Source of the DNA: Salipiger bermudensis
GTDB taxonomy: Bacteria > Pseudomonadota > Alphaproteobacteria > Rhodobacterales > Rhodobacteraceae
DNA length: 64,000 nucleotides
Assembly (NCBI RefSeq): GCF_020171625.1
Contig: NZ_JAIUZY010000003.1
Location: 496,001-560,000 of the forward strand
Direction: 5' to 3'
The notes beneath the pieces are model-generated. The model saw only the letters and a list, made by a program, of their open reading frames with translations. It was not told the DNA's origin and searched no databases. Of this stretch, positions 42,607-57,992 are shown piece by piece. Numbering within the stretch: the first letter of the stretch is position 1; each line of letters starts with the position of its first letter. The position numbers and the translations under genes were made by a program.

Positions 42607-42680
42607 GGCGAGTTGGCGGAGTGGTGACGCAGCGGATTGCAAATCCGTGTACACCGGTTCGATTCCGGTACTCGCCTCCA
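42607..42680 (+). tRNA. tRNA-Cys (GCA)
   Basis: A 74-nt cloverleaf with 7-bp acceptor stem (GGCGAGT / ACTCGCC), seven-base anticodon loop TTGCAAA with GCA at 42639-42641, TTCGATT T-loop and encoded CCA. Its last 48 bases form the left attachment repeat of the mobile element. Confidence 0.97.
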
Positions 42681-42684
42681 TTTA
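42633..42684 (+). repeat. Left attachment repeat (attL) of tRNA-Cys element
   Basis: A 52-bp exact match to 57941-57992, from the anticodon arm through the CCA and four bases beyond. Similarity continues imperfectly for 13 bases (CAAGCACTT shared). Confidence 0.95.
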
Positions 42685-42719
42685 ACTTCAAGCACTTAAC
42701 ACCTTCCAAGTTCTGCCCG

Positions 42720-43811
42720 TCATTGGGCGTTTACAATAGCGTTTACAGTTTTGCTCTCGCGACGCCGCTTTTCTCGCCCAAGAAGCTCCAAAACCTCGGC
42801 GCTTTCTGAGGGTGAAACAGCGGCATAGTGTTCGATTACCGATGCCGCGTAGCGCAGTGACCACCCCATATGGTTGGCAATCTGATTGAGCGCCAAACCT
42901 GCGCGGAGTAGCCGTGTGGCGGCAGTCCCACGTGTGTCTTGCAAGCGAAGCGATGGATCGCTCAGTTTGTCCTTGATGCGCTCACGATATCGAGCAATCG
43001 CGCGGCTGGCTGACACAGCATTCAAAGGGCTGCCGCGGTCGTTCACGAGTAGTATGGACTGGTCAGAAGGCGTCGCGTCAATCAGCGTGCGTAGCTCCGG
43101 CGTCACCGGGATGTGCGCGATTCGGCCACGTTTTTGGGTCCGCACCCTGAAGCGTTCCATGCCATCGAACTTCTCCAGATTGTCACGCGTGAGTCGCACC
43201 AAGTCAGATGGTCGCAGGCCGGTTTCGCAAGCCAGCGTCAAGACGCGTCCAGCCCAATCGGGAGCAACCTCCAAGAAGTTATGGCGATCAGCATCGGTCC
43301 AAACAATTTCGGACCGATCGACGCTGTAGATACGGTGCAGTCGGTCACAGTAGTGAGCTGAGATTTTGCCTTCATTCCGCGCCCAGTTCAATATTCTCAC
43401 GGCGACAGTGCCCGCGTAATCATGCTGCTTCGGGGAATCTTTCCATTTCGCACGCCATTCGTTCAGCTCTCCCCGCGATCTTGGATTTTCCCACAGTTTG
43501 GCGGGGTCTTCTTCGAACTCATCGGCGAAACGCAAGGCCCACTTTCGATAGTCTTGTCTCGTGCGCACCCCTTTGGGCATGGCAGTGCTATCCAAGAAGT
43601 CATCAACCATGTGAGACGTCATGTATTCGGAAGGCTGGTGCTTATTCATCACCTCGGCATAGGCCAGCGAGAAGCCTGGATCGCGTGGCTCGCGTTCTCT
43701 TGACGCCCAGAATTTAGGGCCGCCCCGCCAGGCATAGAAGTGGTGCAAGACGCCTTCCTTCGTGCCCCGGCGCACGCGGTGGACACCTTTAGGAAGATTA
43801 CTCCGAGGCAC
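42720..43811 (-). CDS. int: Tyrosine-type site-specific integrase
   Basis: The protein has 363 residues: basic N-terminus, SAM-like core-binding domain (about 75-165), catalytic domain (about 170-340). First catalytic Arg is in ETGLRPSDL; the second box reads LQDTRGTAATRLL, with Q in place of the usual His of HxxR; W occurs in NHMGWS; nucleophile Tyr in VIEHYAA. It lies 40 bp inside the tRNA-Cys attachment repeat and would drive integration and excision. Confidence 0.94.
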   Translation of the reverse strand: MPRSNLPKGVHRVRRGTKEGVLHHFYAWRGGPKFWASREREPRDPGFSLAYAEVMNKHQPSEYMTSHMVDDFLDSTAMPKGVRTRQDYRKWALRFADEFEEDPAKLWENPRSRGELNEWRAKWKDSPKQHDYAGTVAVRILNWARNEGKISAHYCDRLHRIYSVDRSEIVWTDADRHNFLEVAPDWAGRVLTLACETGLRPSDLVRLTRDNLEKFDGMERFRVRTQKRGRIAHIPVTPELRTLIDATPSDQSILLVNDRGSPLNAVSASRAIARYRERIKDKLSDPSLRLQDTRGTAATRLLRAGLALNQIANHMGWSLRYAASVIEHYAAVSPSESAEVLELLGREKRRRESKTVNAIVNAQ

Positions 43812-44067
43812 GGCGCGCTCTCCTTCTTGCTACAAGGTCATGTTCCTGACTGATGCTGCTTGTGACGGATGTTAGCCCCTGCGCCGCATCAAGCTTGAAC
43901 CGAACAAGCTTGGCGTCGAAGTAGTTGGGATTTCGACGGATTGGCCGGACATCCAGACGACGGCAGAATGTGCGAAAAGCGTCATTTGGAGAAGAAAAGC
44001 CAAACATCTGCGCCAACTCGCTGGCGCTGACTAAGGCTATTTCTGCTGCAATCGCCTCCTTACTCAT
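43798..44067 (-). CDS. Small putative DNA-binding protein
   Basis: The protein is 89 residues from MSKEAIAAE at 44067, overlapping both the integrase start (14 bp) and the upstream gene stop. ALVSASELAQMFGFSSPNDAFRTFCRRL resembles a helix-turn-helix. It may be a recombination directionality factor or a regulator of int. No family assigned. Confidence 0.6.
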   Translation of the reverse strand: MSKEAIAAEIALVSASELAQMFGFSSPNDAFRTFCRRLDVRPIRRNPNYFDAKLVRFKLDAAQGLTSVTSSISQEHDLVARRRARRASE

Positions 44068-44269
44068 GTCCTTGCTCCTCACAGCGATCATCTGGCGTTA
44101 CCATGTTCCGTTCGATGAACTCGGTGATTGCATCATCCGGCAGATAGAACGCCCCACCGATTTTGATGTGCTTCAGTTGGCGTGCGGCCATCAGATTTCT
44201 GATCCGACGTTCCGGCCACCCGCTCTTTTCTGCGAGTTCGCGCGGTGAAAGTAATGAGCAACTCGACAC
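44060..44269 (-). CDS. Excisionase/MerR-type helix-turn-helix protein
   Basis: SPRELAEKSGWPERRIRNLMAARQLKHIKIGGAFYLPDDAI is an HTH_17/excisionase-type domain. I prefer the GTG at 44269 (69 residues) because the longer frame to 44359 would run through the divergent XRE promoter and its palindrome. It is probably the recombination directionality factor. Confidence 0.65.
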   Translation of the reverse strand: MSSCSLLSPRELAEKSGWPERRIRNLMAARQLKHIKIGGAFYLPDDAITEFIERNMVTPDDRCEEQGHE

Positions 44270-44323
44270 AGCTCTTCCCTCTCGTGCAAAATTTCGCGAT
44301 GCTAGGCTAAGAGCAACGCAACG

Positions 44324-44339
44324 GTGTAACTTTTTACAC
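44324..44339. promoter_or_regulatory. XRE-type operator palindrome
   Basis: GTGTAACTTTTTACAC: perfect 6-bp arms with a 4-bp spacer, 11 bp upstream of the XRE start and 55 bp from the divergent excisionase-like start. It is the likely binding site of the XRE regulator. Confidence 0.6.
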
Positions 44340-44350
44340 GATAGGGAAAA

Positions 44351-44776
44351 ATGAAGCATACGTCAACGGGACTGGAGTTCATTGGCGCACGAATGCGCTC
44401 AGCGAGAGAAGCTTCCGGCTACTCCCAAGTGAAGTGCGCCGCGCTCCTCGATGTGTCGGAGCGGTCTTACAAAAGCTATGAGCTAGGCAAACGTGAACCG
44501 TCACTGAGGACAGCCGTTGACTTTTCTGAGCGCCTGCAGGTTGATTTGAGCTGGCTAATTCTTGGCGAGGAAACGGTTCCGACAAACAACCTTATCGACC
44601 TGTCGGAAGAAATAGCCGCAGCGCTTTTTGAGCAAGTTTCGGCGGGAGCCTTTACGCCAAAAAAGTTTGGCCGCATTGCTCGTTATGTGCTCGAGCAGAC
44701 CATTGCAAAGGGAACAGACCCGCAAACGGAAGTGAAGGAAGTGCTCTCAATCTTTCAAGATGAGGCGGAGGAATAA
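44351..44776 (+). CDS. XRE family transcriptional regulator
   Basis: The protein has 141 residues. Lambda-repressor-like HTH about residues 9-65 (RMRSAREASGYSQVKCAALLDVSERSYKSYELGKREP, in parts). The C-terminal 70 residues are helical without a protease motif. It is the control gene of the element's integration module. Confidence 0.87.
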   Translation: MKHTSTGLEFIGARMRSAREASGYSQVKCAALLDVSERSYKSYELGKREPSLRTAVDFSERLQVDLSWLILGEETVPTNNLIDLSEEIAAALFEQVSAGAFTPKKFGRIARYVLEQTIAKGTDPQTEVKEVLSIFQDEAEE

Positions 44777-44781
44777 CGAAC

Positions 44782-45012
44782 TTGGAATACGCACAGCAGG
44801 TAAATCGATTGGCGGGCCGTCTTCGCATCATGGGGATCGGGTTCGGATCTTTAGGCGCGATTATTGCCATCTTGAGTTCTAGTATTACTCCACCCTTTGG
44901 GCTGGTGCTATCGGCGGCGCTACTTGCCTCGGGCGTCACGGCAGCCTTTGTCGGAGATTATCTGCTCCGGTTAACCCGCAAGAATACAGATATCGACCAG
45001 CAGACATTCTAA
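44782..45012 (+). CDS. Small two-TM protein
   Basis: The protein has 76 residues from a TTG start, with two hydrophobic segments (about 17-36 and 41-62), immediately after the XRE gene. No homology recognised. Confidence 0.55.
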   Translation: MEYAQQVNRLAGRLRIMGIGFGSLGAIIAILSSSITPPFGLVLSAALLASGVTAAFVGDYLLRLTRKNTDIDQQTF

Positions 45013-45071
45013 TAGCCAGATGCCCCCTTCGGGCGCGCACATACCTTTTCATATCTAGTGAGACCGCCTCT

Positions 45072-48000
45072 ATGTCCGACACGCTCCGCAGCCTTATTCT
45101 CTCTCTTTTGCCCGAAGACGGCTCATCCATCGGAAATGGAGCCATGATGGCTCGGTTGCGCGACCATATCCCGACCCTTTCCGATGAGAGTTATACCGAA
45201 ACACGGGACGCGCTGATTGATGAAGGCATCCTTGGTCGGGGCAAGGGGCGTGGCGGTTCTGTCTATCGGGCGGATGTGGCTGATCTGGAGTTGACCGCGC
45301 CCGTGGCGAAGGAACCTAAAGCCACCAGCACCAGCACCAGCAGCACTCGCAAGAAGGCCAGCCGCAAATCGGATGAGCCGACCGAGGTGCTTTCGTACCG
45401 CCATGGCGAGACGCGGGTGAACAACCCCGAGGTGGGGATGGTGCACGCCGACACCGACCCGGATGGGGTGAGATCGACCTGGGCCCATGACCCGCACTTG
45501 GACCCGGTGCTGAACTTTGACAGCGCGCGGGGGGCGATTGAAACGCTGATTGACGACGCACTGGCCAGTGACGATCCGGAGCGGATGAAGGACGCGCTTC
45601 AAGAACTCAAACGCTTGCAGGCCCCTTACCTGAACTGGACGGGCAAGGCGGAGAAGACGAGCTTTGAGGTCGATACCGTCTCGCTCCACGTCCATGAACG
45701 GGTGGACCCGGCGACGATCCTCGCCAATGCGGCCAAGCGGCTGAAGGGCAAAGACGCAAGCGCGCAATGGCGGCAGGCGGACCTGTTCGCGGCCCCGTTC
45801 GAGAACCTGCCGCTGCGCCAGGCGCTGGATTTCTACCACCACGAAAAGGGTTGGTCGAACCGGCTGGTGGCGGGAGACAGCCTGCTGGTGATGAACTCGC
45901 TGCTGACCAAGGAGAGCATGGGCGGCAAGGTGCAGATGGTCTATATTGACCCGCCCTATGGCATCAAATACGGGTCGAATTTTCAGCCATTTACCAACAA
46001 GCGAGATGTGAAGGACCGGTCAGACGCCGATCTGACGCAAGAGCCCGAGATGATTAAGGCGTTCCGGGACACCTGGGAGTTGGGCATCCATTCCTACCTC
46101 ACCTATCTGCGCGACCGGCTGATGCTGGCGCGGGAACTGCTGACCGAGAGCGGGTCAGTGTTCGTGCAGATTTCGGATGACAATGTGCATCACGTTCGTG
46201 AAATGCTGGACGAAATCTTTGGCTCTGAGAATTTCTGCTCGGAGATCATAGCCCAAAAGACAACGGGCGCGGGAAGCCCTGCGATCGGAACGAAGGTCCT
46301 TGCAACTGTTTCTGACTACGTTCTCTGGTTCGCCAAAGACCGCGAAAAGCTGAAGTATCGTCAACTCTATTCATTCAAAACTCTCGGCTCGGAGGGAACC
46401 ACGCAATACAAATTTGCTCGAAAGGGCCCGTCTGGCCCGGAAGAACGCATGGCGAAGGATATTGAGTACTCCGAGGCCGAAGACTGGAGGGTGTTTGCTC
46501 CGGACAATCTGACGAGCCAATCAGCGGGCGAAACAACTCTCTTCGAATTCGACGCTTTCGGGAAAACCTTCAAGCCCGGCAAAGGCGGCTGGAAATCCAA
46601 CACCACTGGCATCTGCCGCGTTAAGAAGGCGGATCGAATTATCCCGATTGGCAATACGCCAATGTATCGTCGGTATTTGGAGGATTTCCCCGTTAGTCCG
46701 GTTAACACTCTTTGGCGTGATGTTCTGATAACTGGCTTTGCTGAGCCAAAAACATACGTTGTACAGACCTCCCAGCGGATCATCGAACGCTGCCTCCTGA
46801 TGACCACCGATCCCGGCGATCTGGTGCTCGACCCCACCTGCGGCTCCGGCACCACTGCCTTTGTCGCCGAGAAATGGGGGCGGCGATGGATCACCTGCGA
46901 CACCTCCCGCGTGGCGATCACACTGGCCAAGCAGCGGCTGATGACGGCCAGTTTCGACTATTACGCCCTGCGCTATCCCCATGAAGGGCTGAAGGGCGGG
47001 TTCGATTATGAAACCGTGCCGCATATCACGCTGAAGAGCATCGCCAACAACCCCGACATCGACACGATCTATGACGAGGATCACCCAAAGATCGCGGCGG
47101 CGCTGGCCGATCTGAACGCCGCGCTCACATCCGCGCCCCCGCTGCCGGTCAAGCCCAGCCAAGGTTATCGCAAGGGCAAACAGGTCTCCTTCCGCGATGG
47201 CGACGTGCTGGAGGAATGGGAGGTGCCATTTGACTGGCCCCTCGACAAAGATCGCAAGCCGCTCTGGCCCGCAGCGGCGAAGTCTCCGTTTGAAGACTTC
47301 CACAAGGCCCGTCAGGCCATGCAGCGCCGTATGGATCAGTCCATCTCCGATCACGCCGAACAAGAAACGCTCTACGACAAGCCCGGTATCGACAAGAATA
47401 AGCTGCGTATCACCGGCCCCTTCAGTGTCGAGGCAGTGCCTGCCCCCACTGTGCTCTCCCTCGATGAAAGTCTGCCAGCGGAAGAGGCTGATAGCACCGT
47501 CGCCCGCTCTGGCGAAACTTCGCGACAATCGCTCTGGCGCGATGAGCTGCTGAAAACCGGCGTGCGCGGTAAGGGCGGCAACATGATGCGCTTTGCGGAG
47601 TTCGAGGTGATCCCGGGCACGAAGTTCCTGCATGCCAGCGGATCAGTCGCTGATACGGGCGAACGGGTCGTGGTCAGTTTCGGCCCCGAACACGCAGCCC
47701 TTGAGCAGCGCCAAGTCGAAGAAGCGATGAACGAAGCCTACACGCTGATGCCCAAGCCCAAGTTCCTGCTGTTCTGCGCCTTCACCTTTGATCCGGAGGC
47801 GGCGAAGGATGTCGACGAGATGAACGTGCCCGGCATGACTTTCCTCAAGGTGCAAATGAACACCGACCTTCTTACCGAAGATCTTAAAAAGAAGCGTGCC
47901 AGCAATGAAAGTTTCTGGCTTATGGGTCAGCCCGAGGTTGAGGTACGCAAGCGCGATGATGGGCTGTGGCAGGTCGAGGTGCATGGTTTCGATTACTTCA

Positions 48001-48302
48001 ACCCCAAGACCGGCGAGATCGAAGGTGGCGGTACCAAACAGATTGCCATGTGGTCACTGGACACGGATTATGACCAACGCTCGCTGATGCCGCATCAGGT
48101 ATTTTTCCCTATGGCTGATGCCAAGGGTGGCTGGAACCGGCTGAAAAAGACAATTCGGGCCGAATTGGACGAGGACCTGCTAGAGCAGTTTCACGGCACG
48201 GTGTCACTGCCGTTTGAGGCCGGTGACAACAAGCGAATTGCGGTGAAGATCGTAGATGACCGGGGGATTGAATCCCTCAAGATCATCGCGCTGGAGGGAT
48301 AA
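45072..48302 (+). CDS. Type III-like DNA methyltransferase (Mod)
   Basis: The protein has 1076 residues, considerably longer than classical Mod subunits of about 650. DPPY catalytic motif at 293-296 precedes the AdoMet motif DPTCGSGTT at 587-595: the beta-class order of N6-adenine methyltransferases. An N-terminal winged-helix-like extension (about 1-80) and a 400-residue C-terminal extension (about 680-1076) are unusual. The central recognition part (about 380-575) has visibly lower GC than the flanks, suggesting an exchanged recognition domain. It modifies host DNA to block the adjacent Res. Confidence 0.92.
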   Translation: MSDTLRSLILSLLPEDGSSIGNGAMMARLRDHIPTLSDESYTETRDALIDEGILGRGKGRGGSVYRADVADLELTAPVAKEPKATSTSTSSTRKKASRKSDEPTEVLSYRHGETRVNNPEVGMVHADTDPDGVRSTWAHDPHLDPVLNFDSARGAIETLIDDALASDDPERMKDALQELKRLQAPYLNWTGKAEKTSFEVDTVSLHVHERVDPATILANAAKRLKGKDASAQWRQADLFAAPFENLPLRQALDFYHHEKGWSNRLVAGDSLLVMNSLLTKESMGGKVQMVYIDPPYGIKYGSNFQPFTNKRDVKDRSDADLTQEPEMIKAFRDTWELGIHSYLTYLRDRLMLARELLTESGSVFVQISDDNVHHVREMLDEIFGSENFCSEIIAQKTTGAGSPAIGTKVLATVSDYVLWFAKDREKLKYRQLYSFKTLGSEGTTQYKFARKGPSGPEERMAKDIEYSEAEDWRVFAPDNLTSQSAGETTLFEFDAFGKTFKPGKGGWKSNTTGICRVKKADRIIPIGNTPMYRRYLEDFPVSPVNTLWRDVLITGFAEPKTYVVQTSQRIIERCLLMTTDPGDLVLDPTCGSGTTAFVAEKWGRRWITCDTSRVAITLAKQRLMTASFDYYALRYPHEGLKGGFDYETVPHITLKSIANNPDIDTIYDEDHPKIAAALADLNAALTSAPPLPVKPSQGYRKGKQVSFRDGDVLEEWEVPFDWPLDKDRKPLWPAAAKSPFEDFHKARQAMQRRMDQSISDHAEQETLYDKPGIDKNKLRITGPFSVEAVPAPTVLSLDESLPAEEADSTVARSGETSRQSLWRDELLKTGVRGKGGNMMRFAEFEVIPGTKFLHASGSVADTGERVVVSFGPEHAALEQRQVEEAMNEAYTLMPKPKFLLFCAFTFDPEAAKDVDEMNVPGMTFLKVQMNTDLLTEDLKKKRASNESFWLMGQPEVEVRKRDDGLWQVEVHGFDYFNPKTGEIEGGGTKQIAMWSLDTDYDQRSLMPHQVFFPMADAKGGWNRLKKTIRAELDEDLLEQFHGTVSLPFEAGDNKRIAVKIVDDRGIESLKIIALEG

Positions 48303-48305
48303 GCC

Positions 48306-51083
48306 ATGTCCCTGATTATCAACCGCCCGTGGGAGCGGCCAGAGCAGCATTGGGTCGAAGGAAAAGGCGGCAAGCTAGAAATCAAGCCGGAGCGTCGGCC
48401 TGCCAGCTACGAAGTCTTCGATGCTCGCAACAACACTAAGCGCACTGAAGAGCTGGCCATGGTAAATACGATCCGCGATCGCGTGGATCAGTGGCGCAAT
48501 GATGGCTATCTAGGCGTAACCATCGTTACGCGCAAACTGCTGGAACATTGGCATGACGAGACCGCGCGCCAACACCCGTTCTATTTCTGCCAATTGGAGG
48601 CGATCGAGACGCTGATCTGGTGGGTCGAAGGGGCAGAGGCTTACAAACAGGGCATCCACGTGCCGGGCGATGGTGGAGCCTGGGAGCGGCTCTGCAACAA
48701 GATGGCCACAGGCGCGGGCAAGACCACCGTGATGGCGATGATCATCACCTGGCAGGTGCTGAACGCGTTGACCTATCCGAAGCGGAACAAGGATTTCAGC
48801 CGCGCGGTTTTCATTGTGGCCCCTGGTCTGACGGTGAAGGGCCGGTTGCAGGTGCTGATGCCGTCTGAGGGCAGCTACTACGACGAGTTCAATTTGTGCC
48901 CATCAGAGTCGATGCGCCAGAAGCTGAACCAAGCCGAGGTGTTGATAGAGAACTGGCACACTCTGATGCCGCTGAAGGAACAGGATCGGTCCGTCGTCAA
49001 GAAGGGCAAGGAATCCGACGAAGCCTTCACCCGCCGTGTCCTCGGTAAATTGGCAGCACACAAAGACATCATCGTCATCAACGACGAGGCGCATCACGCC
49101 TATCGCAAACCACCCGAAGTCAAGATTTCGAAAAAGCAGGCCGAGGAACAGGGTATCGACCTCGACGAGGCCACACGCTGGATCGAAGGTCTGGACCGTA
49201 TCCACAAGACCCGCCGCATTCAGCGTTGTTTCGACCTCTCCGCCACGCCCTTCGCTCCCACCGGCAAAGCCAGCACCGACACGGCGCTGTTCGATTGGAT
49301 CCTCTCGGATTTCGGTCTGAACGACGCCATTGAGGCCGGGCTGGTGAAGACGCCGCGGGTGGTGGTGCGGGACGATGCGTTGCCGGATTCAAAGACCCTG
49401 CAATCAAAGCTCTACCACATTTATCGGGACAAATCGGTGTCCGAGGATCTGAACCGCGCCAAGGCGGAGGCTCATGAGGCGCTACCAAAGCTTGTGCAGG
49501 ACGCCTACACCCTTCTAGGGGCAGATTGGCGTGAAACAGCAAGAGATTGGGCCGAAGCCGGGCATCATTCTCCGCCGGTCATGCTGACGGTTTGCAACCG
49601 GACAGAAACCGCCGCCCGGATCGAGCACTACTTCAACCAGGGCGATGCGCATTGGCCTGAATTACAGGCTCCGAACAAAACCTTGCGCGTGGACTCGAAG
49701 GTTCTGGACAAGGCTGAAATCGGTGAATCGGCGACGTCCGACAAAGCCTACGACCAGCGGCTTCAGGATATAGTGGAAGCATCTGATATACCGGAAACCC
49801 GCAAGCGGCAGTTGGTCAGCCTTAAGAAGGAAGAGCTGCTTCGCGAAATCATCGACAATGTCGGCAAACGCGGTCAGGCCGGTCAAAACCTACAGAACGT
49901 AATTTCCGTGGCGATGTTATCTGAAGGATGGGACGCGAAGAACGTCACCCATATCATGGGCTTGCGCGCATTCACGTCGCAGTTGCTGTGCGAACAGGTT
50001 GTCGGCCGGGGGCTTCGCCGCGTTTCCTACGACACTGACGAAAATGGTCTGTTTTTGCCGGAATACGTGAATGTCTTTGGTGTTCCCCTGTCAATCTCAG
50101 AAGCCGGGGACCCCGGTGAAGCCCCACCCCCGCCCAAGCCGACGACGCAGATCGAAGTTATACCCGAACGCGCCAACCTTGAGATCAAATGGCCGAACGT
50201 GGTTCGTGTGGAGTCCGTCGTGCGACGCGAACTGTCCGTAAACTGGTCGAGTGTTGGAACGCTAAATCTTGATCCCGCCTCCACGCCTATCAGCGCGGAC
50301 TTAGCCCCTGCTTTAGGCGGAGCAACGGACTTAGGCAAAGTCTCCTCGATTGACTTGGAAAAGCTCCCAGACGGCTTCAGGCTTCAACGCCTCGTGTTTC
50401 AAGCGGCCCGAAAAGGGTTCGCTGGCTTGCATCATAGCTTTAAAGGGTCAGAAGATCTGCTTGCCGCGCAGCTCGTCCGGATTGTCGAGGAATTCATCGA
50501 GTCCGGAGCGCTGCAAATTCCGTCGCTCTTTCACTCCGATCCTCTACGGCGCCGCATTCTGATCGCTCTCAACATAGATCTGGTTGTTCAGCACCTTATG
50601 CAAAGTGTGTTTGAGCAGAACAGAACCAAGTTGACGCCGATATTCGACGAAGAAAACCCAATCGGGTCTACGGGACAGATGCGCACTTGGTACACTACCA
50701 AGCCCAATTTTCCTGCTATTAAGTCACATATCAGCCATCTAGTTGGGGACTCTTCTTGGGAAGGGCATGCCGCCAATCTGTTCGAACAATCGAGTGAAGT
50801 TCTTTCCTATGCAAAGAATGACCATCTTGGTTTTCAAGTTCAGTATCTGTGGTCCGGCTCCCGCAGGCGCTATGTGCCAGATTTTCTCGTAAGATACTCC
50901 AATGGGAAAATCTTGGCCCTTGAGATCAAGGGGAAGGATAGCCCTCAAAACAAAGCTAAACGGTCCGCGTTGGCTGAATGGGTCAAAGCTGTAAATGAAA
51001 CTGGTGGCTTTGGCACTTGGTGTTGGGATGTAGCTTTCGCACCATCTGACATTGAGGATATAATAGCTCGTCACGTTGGGTGA
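48306..51083 (+). CDS. Type III-like restriction subunit (Res), helicase-nuclease
   Basis: The protein has 925 residues. SF2 helicase: Walker A ATGAGKTT at 134-141, DEAH at 260-263, motif VI VVGRGLRR. Near the C-terminus the PD-(D/E)xK nuclease appears as VPDFLV (D859) and LEIKGK (E873, K875). The gene starts 3 bp after mod, ATP-dependent cleavage partner. The last quarter is lower in GC. Confidence 0.93.
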   Translation: MSLIINRPWERPEQHWVEGKGGKLEIKPERRPASYEVFDARNNTKRTEELAMVNTIRDRVDQWRNDGYLGVTIVTRKLLEHWHDETARQHPFYFCQLEAIETLIWWVEGAEAYKQGIHVPGDGGAWERLCNKMATGAGKTTVMAMIITWQVLNALTYPKRNKDFSRAVFIVAPGLTVKGRLQVLMPSEGSYYDEFNLCPSESMRQKLNQAEVLIENWHTLMPLKEQDRSVVKKGKESDEAFTRRVLGKLAAHKDIIVINDEAHHAYRKPPEVKISKKQAEEQGIDLDEATRWIEGLDRIHKTRRIQRCFDLSATPFAPTGKASTDTALFDWILSDFGLNDAIEAGLVKTPRVVVRDDALPDSKTLQSKLYHIYRDKSVSEDLNRAKAEAHEALPKLVQDAYTLLGADWRETARDWAEAGHHSPPVMLTVCNRTETAARIEHYFNQGDAHWPELQAPNKTLRVDSKVLDKAEIGESATSDKAYDQRLQDIVEASDIPETRKRQLVSLKKEELLREIIDNVGKRGQAGQNLQNVISVAMLSEGWDAKNVTHIMGLRAFTSQLLCEQVVGRGLRRVSYDTDENGLFLPEYVNVFGVPLSISEAGDPGEAPPPPKPTTQIEVIPERANLEIKWPNVVRVESVVRRELSVNWSSVGTLNLDPASTPISADLAPALGGATDLGKVSSIDLEKLPDGFRLQRLVFQAARKGFAGLHHSFKGSEDLLAAQLVRIVEEFIESGALQIPSLFHSDPLRRRILIALNIDLVVQHLMQSVFEQNRTKLTPIFDEENPIGSTGQMRTWYTTKPNFPAIKSHISHLVGDSSWEGHAANLFEQSSEVLSYAKNDHLGFQVQYLWSGSRRRYVPDFLVRYSNGKILALEIKGKDSPQNKAKRSALAEWVKAVNETGGFGTWCWDVAFAPSDIEDIIARHVG

Positions 51084-51165
51084 CGGGGTGGCGAAGGTCA
51101 GCGGTGAAAAGCTAGGCTTGCTAAATTCGACCCCAAAAAATCAAAAACGCGCAACGAGATGAGAT

Positions 51166-51882
51166 ATGCCGCTCAAGAATATTAATATATACTGCGACGA
51201 GAGTTGCCACCTTGAAAATGACAGGGAGGCGGTAATGGTACTTGGGGGGATTTATTGCGACGAATCTGACGTAAGGAGAGTTTCTGGCGCTATAAGAGGC
51301 ATAAAGGATCGCCATGGAGTTTCTCCTGAGTTTGAAATAAAATGGACGAAAGTATCTCCTGGCGCTCTGTCTTTCTATAGAGAAATTGTCGCATTCTTCC
51401 TGAATGACCCATCTGTGAGATTTCGCGGCGTACTCATTCCAGATAAATCCATCCTCGACCACAAAGCGTATGAGCAGACGCACGATGATTGGTACTATAA
51501 AATGTACTATTATATGTTGCGCTACGTTTTCTCTGCACCTCACGCGTACTCTGTTTACATCGACATTAAGGATACTCAAGGGGCGCAAAAAACGCGAAAC
51601 CTGCACGATGTCCTTTGCAACAGCATTCACGACTTCGACCATCAAACGATCAGGAAAGTACAGCAAATTCGCTCGCACGAGAGCTCTCTCCTTCAGCTTG
51701 CGGACTTGCTAATTGGAGCCATTGCATATGAAAATCGGGAAATGGTTGGCAGCCCGGCTAAACTGCAATTAATCGACGATCTAAAATCTGGCTTGGGGGA
51801 CAAAATTCTAACAAGAACGTCCTCTTTTGGAGCGACGAAGTTCAACCTGTTGCGTTGGCAGCCAAATGGTGACGCGGCATGA
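51166..51882 (+). CDS. DUF3800 domain-containing protein
   Basis: The protein has 238 residues. IYCDESCHLEND at the start is the acidic DES motif of DUF3800; VYIDIKD and LQLADLLIGAIAYE complete the acidic set of an RNase H-like fold. Such proteins are common in phage and defence islands; activity not proven. It has low GC and a 4-bp overlap with the next gene. Confidence 0.85.
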   Translation: MPLKNINIYCDESCHLENDREAVMVLGGIYCDESDVRRVSGAIRGIKDRHGVSPEFEIKWTKVSPGALSFYREIVAFFLNDPSVRFRGVLIPDKSILDHKAYEQTHDDWYYKMYYYMLRYVFSAPHAYSVYIDIKDTQGAQKTRNLHDVLCNSIHDFDHQTIRKVQQIRSHESSLLQLADLLIGAIAYENREMVGSPAKLQLIDDLKSGLGDKILTRTSSFGATKFNLLRWQPNGDAA

Positions 51883-52337
51883 GTGCACCAGACCTACTAC
51901 ATTTCGAAGATCTTGACGGTGACTGGGATCGCTACGAAGCGGCCCTCTACCAAGTGTTTGAGCAAGATATCATTGAATTTGACTTGAGTTTCCGCGGCCA
52001 TCCAGTCAACGCGAGGCGGGCACCAGAACATGAGCGTAAATGGGCCTGCTTTTGGCACCTGATATCCGAAGGTCGTGTCGAGGACGACCGACTTCCCGAT
52101 TTACGCAGATGCGAGCGCATCCGCTGGGTCAGATGGGTGATCGAAAACGCTGACGTCTGCGGGGATATCGATGTCTGGCAGAACCGCCGCAATGGAGAAA
52201 CGAACTGGTTACTTTGGTATCGTGAAGAGTACTTGGTTATCCTAGCCGCTCGGACGGGATACTTTTTGTTGAGAACGGCCTTCTGCACCGATCGTGAGCA
52301 CCGTCGCGAAAAACTGAGGAGAGAGCGCGATACGTAA
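51879..52337 (+). CDS. Uncharacterised partner of DUF3800 (possibly BECR-fold nuclease)
   Basis: The protein has 152 residues, soluble. RIRWVRWVIENADVC and NWLLWYREEYLVILAARTGYFLLRTAFC resemble small phage/toxin-type BECR-fold nucleases, but I cannot confirm it. The stop-start overlap with the DUF3800 gene suggests a two-protein unit, perhaps toxin and immunity or nuclease and regulator. Confidence 0.7.
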   Translation: MSAPDLLHFEDLDGDWDRYEAALYQVFEQDIIEFDLSFRGHPVNARRAPEHERKWACFWHLISEGRVEDDRLPDLRRCERIRWVRWVIENADVCGDIDVWQNRRNGETNWLLWYREEYLVILAARTGYFLLRTAFCTDREHRREKLRRERDT

Positions 52338-52358
52338 ATCTGTGCAAATTCTACGACT

Positions 52359-52388
52359 GAGGCCGCGCCGGTTTCCCGGAGCGGCCTC
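52359..52388 (+). terminator. Possible terminator after DUF3800 partner
   Basis: 8-bp perfect stem (GAGGCCGC / GCGGCCTC) with a 14-nt loop, no clear T tract. Confidence 0.35.
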
Positions 52389-52499
52389 GAATACTCCTTC
52401 TACACATGGCAGATGAGCTGTCCGAGATATGTACCTTGGAACCATGAATGTCAAGTGAACAGGGAGAGCACCGACTGTGGCTCGTAGGACTTTGGAAGG

Positions 52500-52778
52500 C
52501 TAGCCGTCATCCGAGTAGTCTGCCGAGAGCTGCTCAAGCGTGGCGACGATGAAGTCTTCAATATCGGCCACCCGCAGGCCATGGTCCAGCGCCAAGCGGC
52601 GCACCAGTCGTTCGATCCGTGCGTCTTTGGGTCCATAAAGGACCCAGTCATCCAGGAGGTGACTGTCTGGATGCGCTCTGGCAGGTAGCTCGTCTACGGC
52701 TTGGGACTGAACAAATGCACGCAAACGCTGGCGCCGCTTAGCATCGTCACGCATTCTCAACCAAATCGTTCCTTGCAT
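52500..52778 (-). CDS. Small hypothetical protein
   Basis: The protein has 92 residues if translation starts at 52778; an internal ATG at 52754 is an alternative. It is helical with charged segments (RIERLVRRLALDHGLRVADIEDFIVATLEQL). It lies between the defence cargo and the mobilization module. No family recognised. Confidence 0.5.
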   Translation of the reverse strand: MQGTIWLRMRDDAKRRQRLRAFVQSQAVDELPARAHPDSHLLDDWVLYGPKDARIERLVRRLALDHGLRVADIEDFIVATLEQLSADYSDDG

Positions 52779-52946
52779 CCATGGTGTCGCCGATCGTCTG
52801 TGCCACATTTTGGTTGAGTAAGAGGTGGGGCTGTCTGCCCACCGCGCCCGACGGCGCTCCCCCGAGGATATTTAAGGGAAGATGAAAACGAGCAAAGGCA
52901 AAGTACTGCATCCTTTGACGCAGCGCAGTTGCCAGTCGTCGAACCA

Positions 52947-54005
52947 TCACCGTTTCTTCTTCTCATCCGCACTGAGGCGCTCCGCGCGGTCCATCATGCG
53001 TTGCATCTTGGCCCCTGTACCGGTTGAGGGGCGGGGATCTGTTGCGGCGGCTGAGGAACGGGTCGCGTCCGCTCCTGGGTTCATCCTCCGGCTTGCATCG
53101 CTCTTTGCGTTTGAGGACATTCGGTTCGGCTGCATCGGGCGGGATTGCGGCATCATTCGCCGGACACTGCCTCCAACGGTTGCGGCTGCCCAGCCTGCCT
53201 GCAAGTTGCCCGATATCATCGGCACGATGAACGGGATCGCCACGACCATCACAAGCGAAAGTATGACTACAGCCAGAAAGGGGAGCGTCGCTCCAACCTG
53301 CTTGACAGAATCCGGCGATCCGATCTGGCCGACCAGCTGGCTCACCAGGCCGAAGACCATCGAGAAGACGCCAGCCATCACGACCGGGTAAAGGGCAAAA
53401 CTCGCCAGCGAAGACACCCATCGGTGGAAATAGTCCTTCGTCACCGGGAACATCGAGCAGAGGATCATGATGGGCGCGATGCCTATCAGGAATGTCATCA
53501 TCATTTTTGCCAGGACGAGAACAGCGCCCGCCGCGCCGCCGATTACTGCCAGAAGAGCCATGAAGAAGACTCCCATCACAGCCTTGCTGACCGCCCCCAT
53601 ATGCGATGTGGCCGAGTTGCCGTATTCGGCCAGCCTGTCGAGCTGAAGGTCAAAACGAAGAGCAAAATATCTGGGTCCCGCGAGGTCTACCCCGATTGCC
53701 GAGCCGACCAAGCGCCCAGCCAGTTCGTCGAGGCCGTCGATGATATGACCGCTGACGAAGTTAAAATTTGCCCAATTGAACGCGAATGTGTTGATCAAAG
53801 CGATCTTGAATGACAAGACCAGCAGCTCTTTCCCGTCCATGGGGCGGATTTGCCATGCCATGTTGATAAACAAAACGATCATCGCGAGGGTCGCGGCCCC
53901 GACAACTATCGTGCCGGAGACCTCCGCGACCGCCGCGAACTGCGAGGTAGCCACTTTCTCGAGACCCTCGTCTGCGGCTGATACGATAAAGTTAACGATA
54001 CCCAT
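52947..54005 (-). CDS. VirB6/TrbL-like type IV secretion membrane protein
   Basis: The protein has 352 residues from the ATG at 54005. Six or so hydrophobic segments between about 25 and 270, including the VirB6/TrbL core (FFMALLAVIGGAAGAVLVLAKMMMTFLIGIAPIMILCSMFPVTKDYF, in parts). The 75-residue C-terminal tail is polar, Met/Arg/Ser-rich. It is the only T4SS subunit found here. The start overlaps the upstream gene stop (TGATG). Confidence 0.88.
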   Translation of the reverse strand: MGIVNFIVSAADEGLEKVATSQFAAVAEVSGTIVVGAATLAMIVLFINMAWQIRPMDGKELLVLSFKIALINTFAFNWANFNFVSGHIIDGLDELAGRLVGSAIGVDLAGPRYFALRFDLQLDRLAEYGNSATSHMGAVSKAVMGVFFMALLAVIGGAAGAVLVLAKMMMTFLIGIAPIMILCSMFPVTKDYFHRWVSSLASFALYPVVMAGVFSMVFGLVSQLVGQIGSPDSVKQVGATLPFLAVVILSLVMVVAIPFIVPMISGNLQAGWAAATVGGSVRRMMPQSRPMQPNRMSSNAKSDASRRMNPGADATRSSAAATDPRPSTGTGAKMQRMMDRAERLSADEKKKR

Positions 54006-54415
54006 CACTCAGGCTCCTGGCACTGAGTACGTAACCGATCCCGAAGATCGGAAATGACAGGGAAATACTCTTCCGCCGACCATGCGATGTGCAGGCTGTC
54101 GGTGGCGGTCGGGGCGGCAAAACCCAGCTCCGCGTACTCGTCCTCGATGATCGCCCAGTCGGGCCATAGAGCCTCGCAATCGCAAGAACCGGCCTCCAGC
54201 GCCATCTGATGCCGCTTCAAGCTATAGAGGTCGTCCGCTGCCACTGAGCGCCATGAATCTCGAAATGACCGGAAAGTCAGATGTTCCGGTCGCGGGCGGA
54301 TCGCGCAACCGTAGCGGTCGGTCTCTGCGGATTGGATGGAATTTCTCAACTCGATCTGGTCCGCCATCACCGGATCAGTAGTCAAAGCCAGAAATAAGAT
54401 AGCTCGATAAATCAT
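54005..54415 (-). CDS. Small secreted Cys-containing protein, T4SS-associated
   Basis: The protein is 136 residues from the ATG at 54415, avoiding the repeat array. N-terminal signal peptide (MIYRAILFLALTTDPVMA). Four cysteines (YGCAI, SCDC, TQC) suggest disulfides in the periplasm. Being directly before virB6 recalls VirB5/entry-exclusion-type genes, but no homology is seen. Confidence 0.65.
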   Translation of the reverse strand: MIYRAILFLALTTDPVMADQIELRNSIQSAETDRYGCAIRPRPEHLTFRSFRDSWRSVAADDLYSLKRHQMALEAGSCDCEALWPDWAIIEDEYAELGFAAPTATDSLHIAWSAEEYFPVISDLRDRLRTQCQEPE

Positions 54416-54423
54416 ACGGTTAC

Positions 54424-54605
54424 TCCCGTCGTTTGTTCGGTGTCGCCTGTCGCTTGTCCGGTGTCGTCTGTTGCGTGTTGACTGTCCGGTATTGAGTGGC
54501 CACGGTCGCGTGTCGCGTGTCGCGTGTCGCGTGTCGCGTGTCGCGTGTCCGGTGCTACCTGTCCCCTGTTCAGTGTTACGTGTTGCTTGTGCAGTGTTGC
54601 GTGTC
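54424..54605. repeat. Heptanucleotide tandem array, 26 units
   Basis: Twenty-six successive 7-bp units fit the consensus (G/C)(C/G)NTGT(C/T); six in the centre (54508-54549) are identical GCGTGTC. The outer units are degenerate but stay in phase. It lies between the relaxase gene and the secreted-protein gene. Confidence 0.9.
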
Positions 54606-54629
54606 CGGGGGGAGAGCTGGATTTGCCCC

Positions 54630-56174
54630 TCAATGGCGAAGGCCATGCACGTCCTCCTCGATCTCGTCTGTCACCGCGTCCAGAGGCGCTTCTGCGCCTC
54701 CAGGGCGAGCGACAGGCTGTCTTTCAGCTTCGACGGTGCCTGCGCGGTGTCGGGGCCATCCTGCATCCAGCCGTTCAAGGCTTCGACCAATGAGAGCTGC
54801 GACCTGAGTAAAGCGATCATGGAGCCGCGTAACCCATCCAGCTCCGTCCGCCTGTCCTGCCCAGAGGTGGTCAATTCCTGCGCGGATGCCTTCGAGGCTT
54901 CCGTCAACTGCTCGACGTAGCCCAACAATTCGCGTTCGAGTGGCGTCAGACCATCCATCACTCACTCCTCCGGGATCGTCAGACAGTCCACGGGTTCCCC
55001 TGCCAGCGAACAGCGTGTCAGCGCCGCGCGACCGCTGCGCGGGATCAGATAGACCGCCTCCGGCCGCTCGATCACCCTGAGCCCCATCGTGTTCAAGTTC
55101 GGCGTCAGCCATGTCATGACTGACCAGGTCGAAATCCCGGTGCAGATCATCAGGCAGCAGGCCACCAGCATCGGCCACATCAGAGCCTTCCATTCCGGTC
55201 GAGCTGCGTTCGCGCTCTGCCGTAAGAGGTGCTTCCTCACGCGCAGCAGGTAGCCTTCCGTATCGGTCTTGATTGTAGCCAGCGCGTTTTCGGCAATGAC
55301 CGTCAAATCGGTCCTGAAGTTCTGCAACTGTGTGTCGATCGAGGCGGCGTTCTCTGCCCTGATCCGCTCCATGTCCGCGTTCAGCTTCTCGCTCAGCCGT
55401 TGCTTCGGCTCTCCAGTCTTCATGGAAAATCTCTCCTCTCAGGCGAAATCGTTCTTCGGTCTCGGGGTCTTTGACTGTCAGGTAATTCGTGCCCGCGCGG
55501 GGCACCTCGAAGCCTGCATCGGTCAGGGCGGCGACCATTCCCGCCCGATCCTCGATCAGCCCCATGGAAATTTGGTCGGCGATCCAGGCATGGAGCCCGT
55601 CGCGCCCGGCGGCGCGGTCCGGGGCTTCTGAGACCGGCTTGACCTCGGCCACACGCTCCACGTCCATGGGGTCGGCCCAGCCGTGGGTCTTGTTCATCAG
55701 GTCGCGCAGGCTGTCGAAGGCGCGCTCATAGCCGGGCGGGGCGATGTTGAGGCTGCGTCCGCTGTGGAGCTCCATGCGTGGCGTGCAGAAATGCAGCTCG
55801 ACGCGATCCTCATGGATGTGGCGCACCCAAAGGCAGGCGTAGCGGTCGGCATCGAGCCTGGCGAAGGCGATCTCCTCGAAACGGTCGATCACCTCCTGCT
55901 GCTGGTCCTCGGTGGGGGCGTCCTCGCGGGCGAAGCTGACAACGCCGGCGCGATAGGTCCATTTGTGCGGGCAGGCGTCGATCAGGTCGATCATGCCCTG
56001 GGGATCGCCGCGCACGACCTCCGGCAGCGGTTCGCGCGTCACGGTCATGGGCTGACCGGACGCATCGCGGATCAGGTCTCGGTTGTCGTCATAGGCGAGC
56101 ACGGTGCGGGCGGTCAGGTATTCGACCGGCCCCGCGCCGCCGCCTTTGCCGTTGGGGAAGAACTTGATCAGCAT
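54630..56174 (-). CDS. Relaxase/mobilization nuclease, ColE1 MbeA-like
   Basis: The protein has 514 residues. Y19 (GPVEYLTA) is at the position of the catalytic tyrosine of MbeA. The metal motif reads H119-x6-E126-x-H128 (HIHEDRVELH), a variant of HEN with His for Asn. The C-terminal half (about 250-510) is acidic and largely overlapped by two smaller ORFs in another frame, as in ColE1. It nicks oriT and starts transfer. Confidence 0.9.
   Translation of the reverse strand: MLIKFFPNGKGGGAGPVEYLTARTVLAYDDNRDLIRDASGQPMTVTREPLPEVVRGDPQGMIDLIDACPHKWTYRAGVVSFAREDAPTEDQQQEVIDRFEEIAFARLDADRYACLWVRHIHEDRVELHFCTPRMELHSGRSLNIAPPGYERAFDSLRDLMNKTHGWADPMDVERVAEVKPVSEAPDRAAGRDGLHAWIADQISMGLIEDRAGMVAALTDAGFEVPRAGTNYLTVKDPETEERFRLRGEIFHEDWRAEATAEREAERGHGADQGRERRLDRHTVAELQDRFDGHCRKRAGYNQDRYGRLPAAREEAPLTAERERSSTGMEGSDVADAGGLLPDDLHRDFDLVSHDMADAELEHDGAQGDRAAGGGLSDPAQRSRGADTLFAGRGTRGLSDDPGGVSDGWSDATRTRIVGLRRAVDGSLEGIRAGIDHLWAGQADGAGWVTRLHDRFTQVAALIGRSLERLDAGWPRHRAGTVEAERQPVARPGGAEAPLDAVTDEIEEDVHGLRH
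54671..54958 (-). CDS. MbeD-like small coiled-coil protein nested in relaxase gene
   Basis: The protein is 95 residues from the ATG at 54958 (a GTG lies one codon earlier), directly after the stop of the 54962 gene. Heptad-rich helical sequence (LEALNGW..., LERELLGYVEQLTEASKAS). It is entirely within the relaxase gene in another frame, like mbeD of ColE1. Confidence 0.65.
   Translation of the reverse strand: MDGLTPLERELLGYVEQLTEASKASAQELTTSGQDRRTELDGLRGSMIALLRSQLSLVEALNGWMQDGPDTAQAPSKLKDSLSLALEAQKRLWTR
54962..55423 (-). CDS. MbeB-like mobilization protein nested in relaxase gene
   Basis: The protein has 153 residues: charged coiled-coil N-terminal half, one membrane helix (MWPMLVACCLMICTGISTW, about 83-106), and a short extracytoplasmic C-terminus. 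Topology and nested position match ColE1 MbeB. It overlaps the relaxase gene in a second frame. Confidence 0.7.
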   Translation of the reverse strand: MKTGEPKQRLSEKLNADMERIRAENAASIDTQLQNFRTDLTVIAENALATIKTDTEGYLLRVRKHLLRQSANAARPEWKALMWPMLVACCLMICTGISTWSVMTWLTPNLNTMGLRVIERPEAVYLIPRSGRAALTRCSLAGEPVDCLTIPEE

Positions 56175-56608
56175 CCGGGCGGCCTACGGTGCTGGGCGAT
56201 GATTTCCGCCAACCGCCGCTCGATACCGACCAGCGCCGCCGCAACTCGCAAGGCCTCGACCTCGCTGGCCCGGCCCGTGCGGGCCGCCGTGTTGAGCCAC
56301 CGCGCGATCTGGTTGAGGTTGCCGCCATAGCGGGACACAGCCAGAACGAGCGCGGGATCAACACGGGGCGCAGGCTTGCGCCGCCGAGACTGCGTGGCCC
56401 ACAGGGCCTCCCGCAGAAGCTCGGCGGCTGGCAGACCCGCCGCTTCGGCTTTAGCCCGAAGCGCGGCCTTCTCTTGCGTCGAGCATCGGAAAACGAAGGT
56501 TTCCGTGCGCGGCTCTTTTGCGCGGCCTTGGGCCGCGCCGGTGGGGTTCGAAGGGGAGGCTTGCCACCCCTCGCAAGGCCCCGTGTCAGAAGCGTCAGCG
56601 TATGACAT
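56168..56608 (-). CDS. MobC-like relaxosome protein
   Basis: The protein is 146 residues from MSYADASD at 56608; an upstream ATG at 56638 is possible. RHH-like basic domain with the MobC signature GGNLNQIARWLN near residue 95. It overlaps the relaxase start by 7 bp and accompanies it at oriT. Confidence 0.87.
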   Translation of the reverse strand: MSYADASDTGPCEGWQASPSNPTGAAQGRAKEPRTETFVFRCSTQEKAALRAKAEAAGLPAAELLREALWATQSRRRKPAPRVDPALVLAVSRYGGNLNQIARWLNTAARTGRASEVEALRVAAALVGIERRLAEIIAQHRRPPGC

Positions 56609-56627
56609 GGGTCGCCTTGCTCTTTGC

Positions 56628-57719
56628 CTACCGGTCATGACTGGGCACTCCGCCTGTGAAGTTTCTAAGTTCGGCGATCAGCGCAGTAATCACTGCGTCT
56701 CCACGAGTGGTCTTCCGCGCTAGGCCGATGAAAGCCGCAGCTGGATTGCGCACGGCGAAACGCCCCACGCGAACGGAGTTTCGATCTGCGATTAGCAGGC
56801 AGAGAACGGCCCTTAGCTCGCCAAGTTGGTCGCGCACCACATCCCACTCCATGCAGGATATGCCGAGCATCTGCGCTCGCTCTCGCGCCGCCAGAAAGAT
56901 CGTTGGCAAGCTCGGTAGGTAGGTCTCTCCAGCCGCTTCAGCGTAGATTGCGATGACTTCCCGCAAGTCGTCGCCAGCCAACGTGAGAACTTGCGCAGGT
57001 GTGATCGTCACGCTGGCTTGCGTTCTACAGATTTCGATCTTCTTTTTCGGATCAGTATCAGGTCGGACCGAACTGTCCGACCGCGCGGTCTCAACTGTCT
57101 GACCGGATGCTGGCGAAAACTCGGCAAGAATGACCTGCAGCGCGTCGATGAGCGCATTCATCCGGCCCGCGTCCCTGACCTCAGATGGGCGTAGGCGTGG
57201 GAAGGCTTCACGGGCGGCGTTGAGCGCTTCCGGTGCATCCAGGCTCCGGATCTGCCGGATCAGGTCGTTCAACTGGTTCCGATGCTCTTTCAGTCCCTGC
57301 GCTGCAACGGATGTCTGCCGGATGCGCGCCAGAAGCTCCGGGGCGCGGTCAATGAGCGGCGCGAAGTTTATCCCGCCCGCCGAGACAATGCGGCCGTCGT
57401 CATCGCGTCGTCCGAAGCGCCGGCCATTCGCCGCGCCGGTCCTCAAAACAAGACCGCGCTCTTCGAGCCGGGTCTCAATCCGTGTGATCCTGCGGATGTG
57501 GAAGTTCATGCGATCGGCCAAGCCCGCCACGCGTTCCCAAACGGCACAGATGCGACCGGGAAGGAAGTCCTCTGCGCGGACGAGCCTGAACAGGCTGCGC
57601 ATATAGGCCAGATCCTCGTCGCGCAGGCCCAGCTCCGTACGCAGCTTGGCGAGCATGTCGAGCAGCTCAAACGGCTTAACGCCTGCGGGCAGGCCGGAAT
57701 GGGTCAGCGTGGTGCTCAT
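56628..57719 (-). CDS. repC: RepC-like replication initiation protein
   Basis: The protein has 363 residues. The RepC signature is plain: YMRSLFRLVRAEDFLPGRICAVWERVAGLADRMNFHIRRITRIE (in parts), followed by the GINFAPLIDRAPEL block. No repA/repB genes adjoin. In plasmids RepC is the initiator acting at an origin inside its own gene; here it may allow replication of the excised circle. Confidence 0.87.
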   Translation of the reverse strand: MSTTLTHSGLPAGVKPFELLDMLAKLRTELGLRDEDLAYMRSLFRLVRAEDFLPGRICAVWERVAGLADRMNFHIRRITRIETRLEERGLVLRTGAANGRRFGRRDDDGRIVSAGGINFAPLIDRAPELLARIRQTSVAAQGLKEHRNQLNDLIRQIRSLDAPEALNAAREAFPRLRPSEVRDAGRMNALIDALQVILAEFSPASGQTVETARSDSSVRPDTDPKKKIEICRTQASVTITPAQVLTLAGDDLREVIAIYAEAAGETYLPSLPTIFLAARERAQMLGISCMEWDVVRDQLGELRAVLCLLIADRNSVRVGRFAVRNPAAAFIGLARKTTRGDAVITALIAELRNFTGGVPSHDR

Positions 57720-57940
57720 GCCGCCCTCCCGATGCTTGCGAGAGGGGACAAGACGCGGTACGCTGTGGGTAGACCTACTTTTGAATTGCCGTCGGTGGAA
57801 GTTGCAGCTTCCCCGGCGGTTTTTCTTCGCCAGCAGAACGGTGGAAATAGGTTTACATCTGACCGGTAAGTCCCTGATCTTTCACCGTGAACAAACAGCG
57901 CGCGTTTACAGAAAAAACCAGTAAATTCAATACATCCAGA

Positions 57941-57992
57941 CGGATTGCAAATCCGTGTACACCGGTTCGATTCCGGTACTCGCCTCCATTTA
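57941..57992 (+). repeat. Right attachment repeat (attR)
   Basis: A 52-bp exact copy of 42633-42684: the displaced tRNA-Cys 3' end. The rest of the tRNA is absent, so this copy is not functional. Confidence 0.95.

Follow-up and report, generated by a model that had tools for sequence, protein, structure and literature searches.

A phased heptanucleotide array in a mobilizable element of Salipiger bermudensis shares its heptad type with elements upstream of plasmid virC1 genes

The window analysed here is a stretch of 64,000 nucleotides from Salipiger bermudensis (NCBI RefSeq assembly GCF_020171625.1, contig NZ_JAIUZY010000003.1, positions 496,001 to 560,000 of the forward strand), and all coordinates are counted from its first letter. 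It holds a 15.3-kb element, at 42633-57992 and flanked by 52-bp direct repeats, that looks like an integrative mobilizable element (IME) dependent on a helper and supplying its own VirB6, and within this element a run of contiguous heptanucleotides lies between the relaxase gene and the genes for a small protein and for VirB6. When this array is searched by itself, every match of comparable scale is found directly upstream of a VirC1-like gene, and we propose that the array may mimic DNA sites of a helper plasmid. The features concerned are as follows.

42633-42684, plus strand: attL, a copy of the 52-bp direct repeat formed by the 3' part of a tRNA-Cys gene (42607-42680)
42720-43811, minus strand: tyrosine integrase of the IME
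52947-54008, minus strand: TrbL/VirB6 type IV secretion protein, the sole channel subunit of a type IV secretion system (T4SS) recognised in the IME
54005-54415, minus strand: small protein of 136 amino acids whose start resembles a signal peptide by eye
54424-54430, minus strand: TCCCGTC, overlapping what appears from sequence to be a ribosome-site-like GGGAG of the next minus-strand gene
54431-54605, plus strand: the heptad array proper
54630-56174, minus strand: MobA/VirD2-type relaxase (Pfam Relaxase 24.1 bits, cut-off 24.6), presumptively MOBP
56168-56638, minus strand: MobC/NikA-like relaxosome accessory protein
56599-56621, minus strand: 23-bp stretch within the start of mobC, the probable origin of transfer (oriT) or part of it
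56628-57719, minus strand: RepC-like replication protein (Pfam RP-C)
57941-57992, plus strand: attR, the second copy of the 52-bp direct repeat

Read along the minus strand, the order is RepC-like protein, MobC, relaxase, array, small protein and VirB6/TrbL, with the stop codon of the relaxase 24 bp from the array and the array beginning 15 bp past the start codon of the small protein. A preliminary description of this DNA had placed the array between the relaxase and the transfer genes, and the gene annotation bears this out. The GGGAG stretch stands 7 bases ahead of the minus-strand ATG at 54415. Homologues of the small protein are weak (about 25-35% identity) and usually precede virB6 in T4SS clusters of the Rhodobacterales; a relative is present at 31 of 35 other VirB6 loci (E up to 0.02), and of the four loci without one, L228 offers just 164 bp of upstream sequence. 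With an integrase, a relaxase and a channel subunit of its own and without a full T4SS, the IME has the make-up of an SGI1-like hijacker. Its VirB6 and small exported protein may remodel the channel of a helper or evade entry exclusion, as the TraG of SGI1 does.

The preliminary description had counted 26 units over 182 bp. The whole 182 bp at 54424-54605 does keep a single 7-bp phase, while the first unit (TCCCGTC) is no heptad of the class, leaving 25 in-phase NNNTGT[CT] units, a few of them off the core, with zero indels. Counted over all 26, the core columns hold T in 24, G in 25 and T in 24 units, followed by a column with C in 16, T in 9 and G in 1; the commonest bases of the three variable columns are G (15), C (15) and G (16). 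The self-match at lag 7 is 0.611, while 2000 dinucleotide shuffles average 0.310 and never exceed 0.457, and a base-by-phase test gives -log10 p values of 32.9 at period 7 and 25.6 at period 14, with every other period from 3 to 15 at 0.5 or below. Elsewhere in the window, none of 407 other 310-bp pieces exceeds 3 at period 7 (maximum 2.4). TRF picks up parts of the array only, and a pattern of four TGTY units has nine matches in the 4.74-Mb genome, every one of them inside the array.

Variation among the units sits chiefly in NNN: TGT is conserved at 56 of 60 and NNN at 30 of 60 (Fisher 1.3e-7, a test that takes the units as independent), and 17 of the 25 units are distinct (diversity 0.68). 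The six perfect central copies reported earlier are present, as GCGTGTC at 54508-54549. The progressive outward divergence reported with them does not hold, since mismatches to GCGTGTC number four right beside the central block on each side and zero in the last unit. As to the old age and recent central expansion that had been suggested, a central duplication is likely, whereas a held TGT and a free NNN in fixed phase resemble constraint rather than decay.

A BLAST search of PLSDB with the array alone returned 13 records, all from Rhodobacterales, several of the plasmids being near-identical. All 13 also came up when the adjacent ParA protein served as the query, and the array match lies within 200 bp of its gene. 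Gene order was read in six of these records, where the gap holding the array parts the ParA gene from mobC-like, relaxase and virD4 genes (virD4 lying beyond the stretch read in one of the six); the remaining records were judged by coordinates. Among 390 genomes of the order, which like the family sample were drawn evenly, 13 match the array besides this one, and five of these matches are arrays as judged by a period-7 peak above 10 (11-40); all five lie immediately before virC1, and mobC, relaxase and virD4 come next. All 18 array-scale matches (13 PLSDB records and five genomes) therefore directly precede the gene of a VirC1-like ParA, and in the 11 that were inspected mobC, relaxase and virD4 stand alongside. 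Three further order matches (L396, L399 and L400) lack a period-7 peak at the match. The other five (L393, L394, L395, L397 and L398) were excluded from the array count; they come from small contigs whose ends overlap, where a four-heptad palindrome (GAGTGTCGGGTGTCGCGTGTCGCGTGTC and variants, then the inverse) lies next to direct repeats, probably as a replication origin.

The plasmid ATPase is nearest to VirC1 (Pfam VirC1 3.3e-22 for the pP92_f protein). The NCBIfam models give it 80.9 bits for VirC1 (cut-off 313) and 80 for ParA_partition (cut-off 180), and by these profile scores it is a relative and a member of neither equivalog. A phage origin of the array was considered and dropped, phage records giving no match at E 0.01; neither VirC1 nor the product of the gene that follows it, here called its partner, was found in viral contigs.

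Upstream of VirC1-like genes in general, a test that presupposes no motif gave -log10 p above 5 at period 7 in 34 of 37 loci (32 of 35 loci and both of two Hyphomicrobiales plasmids). The 37 comprise 22 places from a genome search for VirC1 and 15 that we chose from 56 PLSDB records with VirC1; they are redundant and form 23 sequence clusters, of which 20 are positive for period 7, the cluster-level p-values coming from segments chosen to maximise them and the 37-locus counts and the control from fixed pieces. The three exceptions, L216, L248 and L249, score 1.5, 1.1 and 0.7 in the fixed piece; in chosen segments they reach 10.8 (98 bp of L216), 9.2 and 1.4. In L214 period 14 stands slightly above period 7. 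As a control, 2830 pieces of 182 bp from outside the virC1-mobC gap in 11 plasmid regions all remain at or below 4.3, compared with 11.0-40.7 inside the gap; control pieces above 4 number three at period 7 and one, four and one at periods 10, 11 and 13. The motif changes with lineage, from TGTY with a free NNN to TGT-T/C-TCG, TGT-K-CC and a C[GA] with most positions free. Six distant C[GA] loci carry 53 heptads over 370 bp, with 47-51 distinct units, a composition that excludes slippage as its maker and that a row of proteins spaced at 7 bp could produce. In several distant virC1 lineages some 70 bp separate the start codon from the beginning of the array, which extends to 441 bp.

The window array shares with this class a period of 7 that is the strongest of periods 3-15 over more than 150 bp, and many distinct units (17 of 25) round a kept TGT core. 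Its position is different: the next gene is that of the small exported protein before virB6 and not virC1, and we regard the array as a relocated relative or mimic of the virC1-upstream element rather than a member in place. Core and orientation toward the next gene match the nearest virC1 lineage, where arrays start from +14 or +21 relative to the start codon (15 bp in the window), and in both settings the array adjoins a ribosome site. The NNN triplets fit the vocabulary of the plasmid arrays, only 0.0032 of column shuffles being as good, and the unit diversity of 0.68 falls within the plasmid range of 0.43-0.79.

Ordinary repeats with the same core look different. Generic TGTY arrays were taken from viral contigs as well as from many phyla, their gene context being read in a few plasmid cases, and they hold few distinct units: across 141 of them the median diversity is 0.17 and none with at least 15 units reaches 0.5, although values of 0.73 and 0.5 occur in two short arrays, of 11 and 8 units. 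These are 141 of 142 loci (L339 scored too low), selected for exact runs of 8-9 TGTY units, and the window array has a run of 8. Few distinct units and divergence at all positions, as expected of a microsatellite, are not what the window array displays; its six identical central units do fit such an origin. A pure CTGTGGT array of about 20 units in another genome of the genus (G088:C6:257672-257808) indicates that ordinary microsatellites do occur there. A pure 12-unit TGTCCGG microsatellite lies about 530 bp upstream of the gene for PRTRC system protein D on Cupriavidus pENH92 (L222:3492-3575), and a 39-unit array in which two TGTY heptads predominate lies in the gap beside cas6 on Anabaena pANA02 (L220:2498-2770).

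Heptads also accompany the mobilization module itself. The relaxase has a match in 41 of 295 genomes of the family, this one counted, and of 44 places outside its own genome (in 40 genomes) 29 were examined, some with short flanks. The 23-bp stretch at the start of mobC is exact in 18 of these 29 loci, and it is identical letter by letter despite a MobC protein identity of about 55-73%; it is probably an oriT embedded in coding sequence, and it lies 2 kb from the window array. A scan of the 29 loci for period 7 without any motif (3937 fixed pieces) gave peaks of 6.2-10.2 in four of them (L028, L039, L025 and L027; larger regions L401-L404), the next value being 3.0. The heptad stretches of these four have 17-21 units with a [GA]C[GA] core, their extents being taken from segments chosen for maximal score, and lie 10-33 bp upstream of mobC, beside the oriT candidate. 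In the larger regions, 182-bp pieces score 6.3-10.7 at the stretch and at most 3.4 elsewhere; two further larger regions gave no comparable peak. VirC1 was not found in the four regions, and the 21 genomes that have VirC1 do not include theirs. Being alike, the four loci count as one origin. Heptads therefore accompany this mobilization module in genomes without virC1, with a core as in the distant virC1 lineages.

Several described systems share parts of this arrangement. On pSM19035 (delta/omega), the omega-type ribbon-helix-helix ParB protein is reported to read WATCACW heptads over the promoter of ParA, one dimer per 7-bp site; each site has 7-10 copies, and the ATPase is activated only if four or more of them are contiguous (PMC9499535). 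The heptads of the virC1 plasmids resemble the parS sites so described in being contiguous, without spacers, and in preceding a ParA-family gene; they differ in having 25-53 units (TGTY and distant lineages together), a single orientation and a TGTY or C[GA] motif, and in that the ATPase is VirC1-like and stands beside mobC and the relaxase, its partner protein showing no recognised domain. The window copy departs further, its motif being NNNTGTY and not WATCACW and no ParA having been found in the window. The VirC1 partner has no match to a ribbon-helix-helix family; it resembles VirC2 or a ribbon-helix-helix protein by eye, and both identities were set aside as profile searches gave nothing convincing.

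In Agrobacterium, VirC1 is reported to bind overdrive and to deliver the transfer intermediate to VirD4 (PMC4285021, PMC4949242). The likeness to overdrive and VirC1-VirC2 of the Ti plasmid, as far as overdrive is known here by description, lies in a VirC1-family ATPase combined with a cis element in the transfer-initiation region; overdrive lies beside a nick site, and the probable oriT adjoins the heptads in the four relaxase relatives and is 2 kb from the array in the window. The accounts of SGI1 describe parS mimics of its IncC helper (PMC10954446) and TraN, TraH and TraG of its own that remodel the channel (PMC5389848). Like SGI1 so described, the IME lacks a complete Par system, bears helper-like sites and has its own channel subunit (VirB6), whereas SGI1 has two 22-bp inverted repeats for the IncC ParB and the IME one long heptad array, its hijacking being putative. 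R388 has direct repeats (stbDRs) round the promoter of the Par-like stb operon by its transfer region, with a reported role in balancing stability and transfer (PMC3098194); unlike the arrays considered here, they are described as two sets of five 9-bp repeats with 2-bp spacing. By analogy, the plasmid element seems to combine features of pSM19035 parS, Ti overdrive/VirC1 and the R388 stb repeats. Repeats of 7 bp in intergenic DNA have also been described in Nostoc, Xanthomonas and Beggiatoaceae (PMC4692102, PMC4679880).

We favour the view, at a probability of roughly 0.56, that the array is a platform of contiguous 7-bp sites for the heptad-binding protein of a helper plasmid, mimicked by a mobilizable element in the manner of SGI1. 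The anatomy, the period and the association are observed, while we infer the binding, the helper and the effect. In the plasmid setting the array would be coated by a heptad-binding protein, for which the likeliest candidates are the product of the gene that follows virC1 and VirC1 itself. This protein would tune virC1, with the array as operator, and link the DNA of the plasmid to the ATPase, either to position it at the transfer channel or to partition it. In this relaxase family, mobilizable elements would lack VirC1 and carry the array as a mimic, the motif differing (TGTY in the IME, [GA]C[GA] in the four relatives) as though each suited another helper lineage. Proteins of the helper could thereby act on IME DNA and here perhaps also on the pair of small exported protein and virB6, and the whole arrangement would be a convergent counterpart of SGI1, with its parS mimics and own channel subunits. 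The element is probably a variant of a heptad centromere or transfer enhancer, and the IME copy a mimic of it. The broader proposition is that conjugative plasmids of Alphaproteobacteria bear, before virC1, a phased centromere- or overdrive-like class of heptad elements whose 7-bp period is constant and whose motif drifts from lineage to lineage, and that helper-tuned mobilizable elements of one relaxase family have adopted such arrays without virC1, so as to be transferred or segregated by the VirC1 system of a helper, an independent SGI1-style parasitism. It is more tentative, and we place its odds just short of even.

A number of observations weigh against the helper-mimic reading. No helper was seen in the isolate, whose assembly of 39 contigs contains neither VirB4 (PF03135, E 0.001) nor a relative of VirC1 (E 1e-15), and a lost or unassembled plasmid is possible. 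None of the 35 other VirB6 loci has an array upstream of virB6, and in a tree of VirB6 proteins that of the IME sits on a long branch outside the array-bearing plasmids; common descent with one helper by way of VirB6 was dropped because of this long branch. In the 13 plasmids the best match is the array alone, the genes of the window being unmatched at the DNA level, and the VirC1 partner has no convincing match to a Pfam, NCBIfam or PDB profile. The search for the same array in homologous elements, which the preliminary description had proposed as a check, turned up no TGTY array near any of the 29 relaxase relatives; their flanks (up to 1.5 kb) hold no match to the small protein, VirB6 or RepC of the window, and since they may be another kind of element than the IME, the absence is no strict refutation. 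The four [GA]C[GA] stretches are related to one another, shorter than the window array and differently placed, and they run into the end of an open frame that lies upstream. Around the window array no sigma-70-like promoter was found, a result without weight, as only 0.1 would be expected. Finally, the six identical central units show that slippage or duplication has been active.

This last observation, with the lack of an array before 35 other virB6 genes, is also what speaks for an ordinary heptanucleotide microsatellite of the cyanobacterial/Bacteroidota kind, a functionless product of slippage in the gap between relaxase and virB6 that has aged and re-expanded centrally. Repeats of this kind are common enough: TGTY heptad arrays form at least 115 stretches in many phyla and occur in 1-2% of relatives (5 of 295 genomes, this one counted, and 5 of 385), and a reversed control pattern in 10 of 295 genomes implies that heptad microsatellites with other cores are no rarer. 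We nevertheless consider a microsatellite unlikely, given a diversity of 0.68 against the generic median of 0.17, a kept TGT beside a varied NNN through 25 units without an indel, and array-scale matches that all prove to be arrays upstream of virC1. It is less likely still that the array is an operator only, regulating the small-protein/virB6 pair (virC1 on the plasmids) with no part in positioning or partition. Such a role would suit its abutting a ribosome site in both settings and recalls the pSM19035 parS heptads, which are described as likewise overlapping promoters, but 25-53 units far exceed the needs of an operator, the plasmid arrays adjoin mobC-relaxase as well as a ParA/VirC1 ATPase, and the four relaxase relatives have their heptads next to mobC and the probable oriT.

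The preliminary description had found the location to fit an iteron, an oriT-associated or a variable-number element. An association with oriT in the wider sense may hold, given the heptads beside the oriT candidate in the four relatives. A narrower reading makes the array part of the oriT proper or an iteron for the RepC-like protein of the IME. The relaxase gene is near, a RepC-like gene lies upstream in the same string of genes, and the four relatives have heptads beside mobC; even so, we judge this very improbable, as the conserved stretch at the start of mobC is the better oriT candidate, the TGTY array is missing near the relaxase relatives, and the close relatives of the array are upstream regions of VirC1, which leaves the RepC idea unsupported. 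The slimmest chance of all goes to an RNA leader, in which RACANNN repeats of the transcript would be bound by an RNA-binding protein or would slow ribosomes. The array does stand immediately ahead of the ribosome site, and the minus strand is open through it (a 213-amino-acid frame), but the distance from the start codon and the length of the distant virC1 arrays do not suit a leader, and no RNA-binding partner is known.

We met no description of a phased heptad element before virC1 in the open literature, as judged by titles and the beginnings of abstracts. To our knowledge, which DNA sites VirC1-type ATPases use outside Agrobacterium, and by what route relaxosomes reach the channel, appear to be open questions, and the heptad element offers a defined candidate site for such ATPases. 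A 7-mer array that would seem to be junk is here linked to a recurrent phased DNA element before VirC1-type ATPases near transfer genes; if the proposal is true, the copies in mobilizable elements would parasitise the DNA-positioning step as well as the channel. The constant 7-bp period with a changing motif would also make a clean case for studying the co-evolution of a DNA-binding protein and its sites. Apart from its mobilization genes, the IME carries a cargo at 45072-51083: methylase and ResIII subunits that make up a type III-like restriction-modification pair, and after them a DUF3800 protein.
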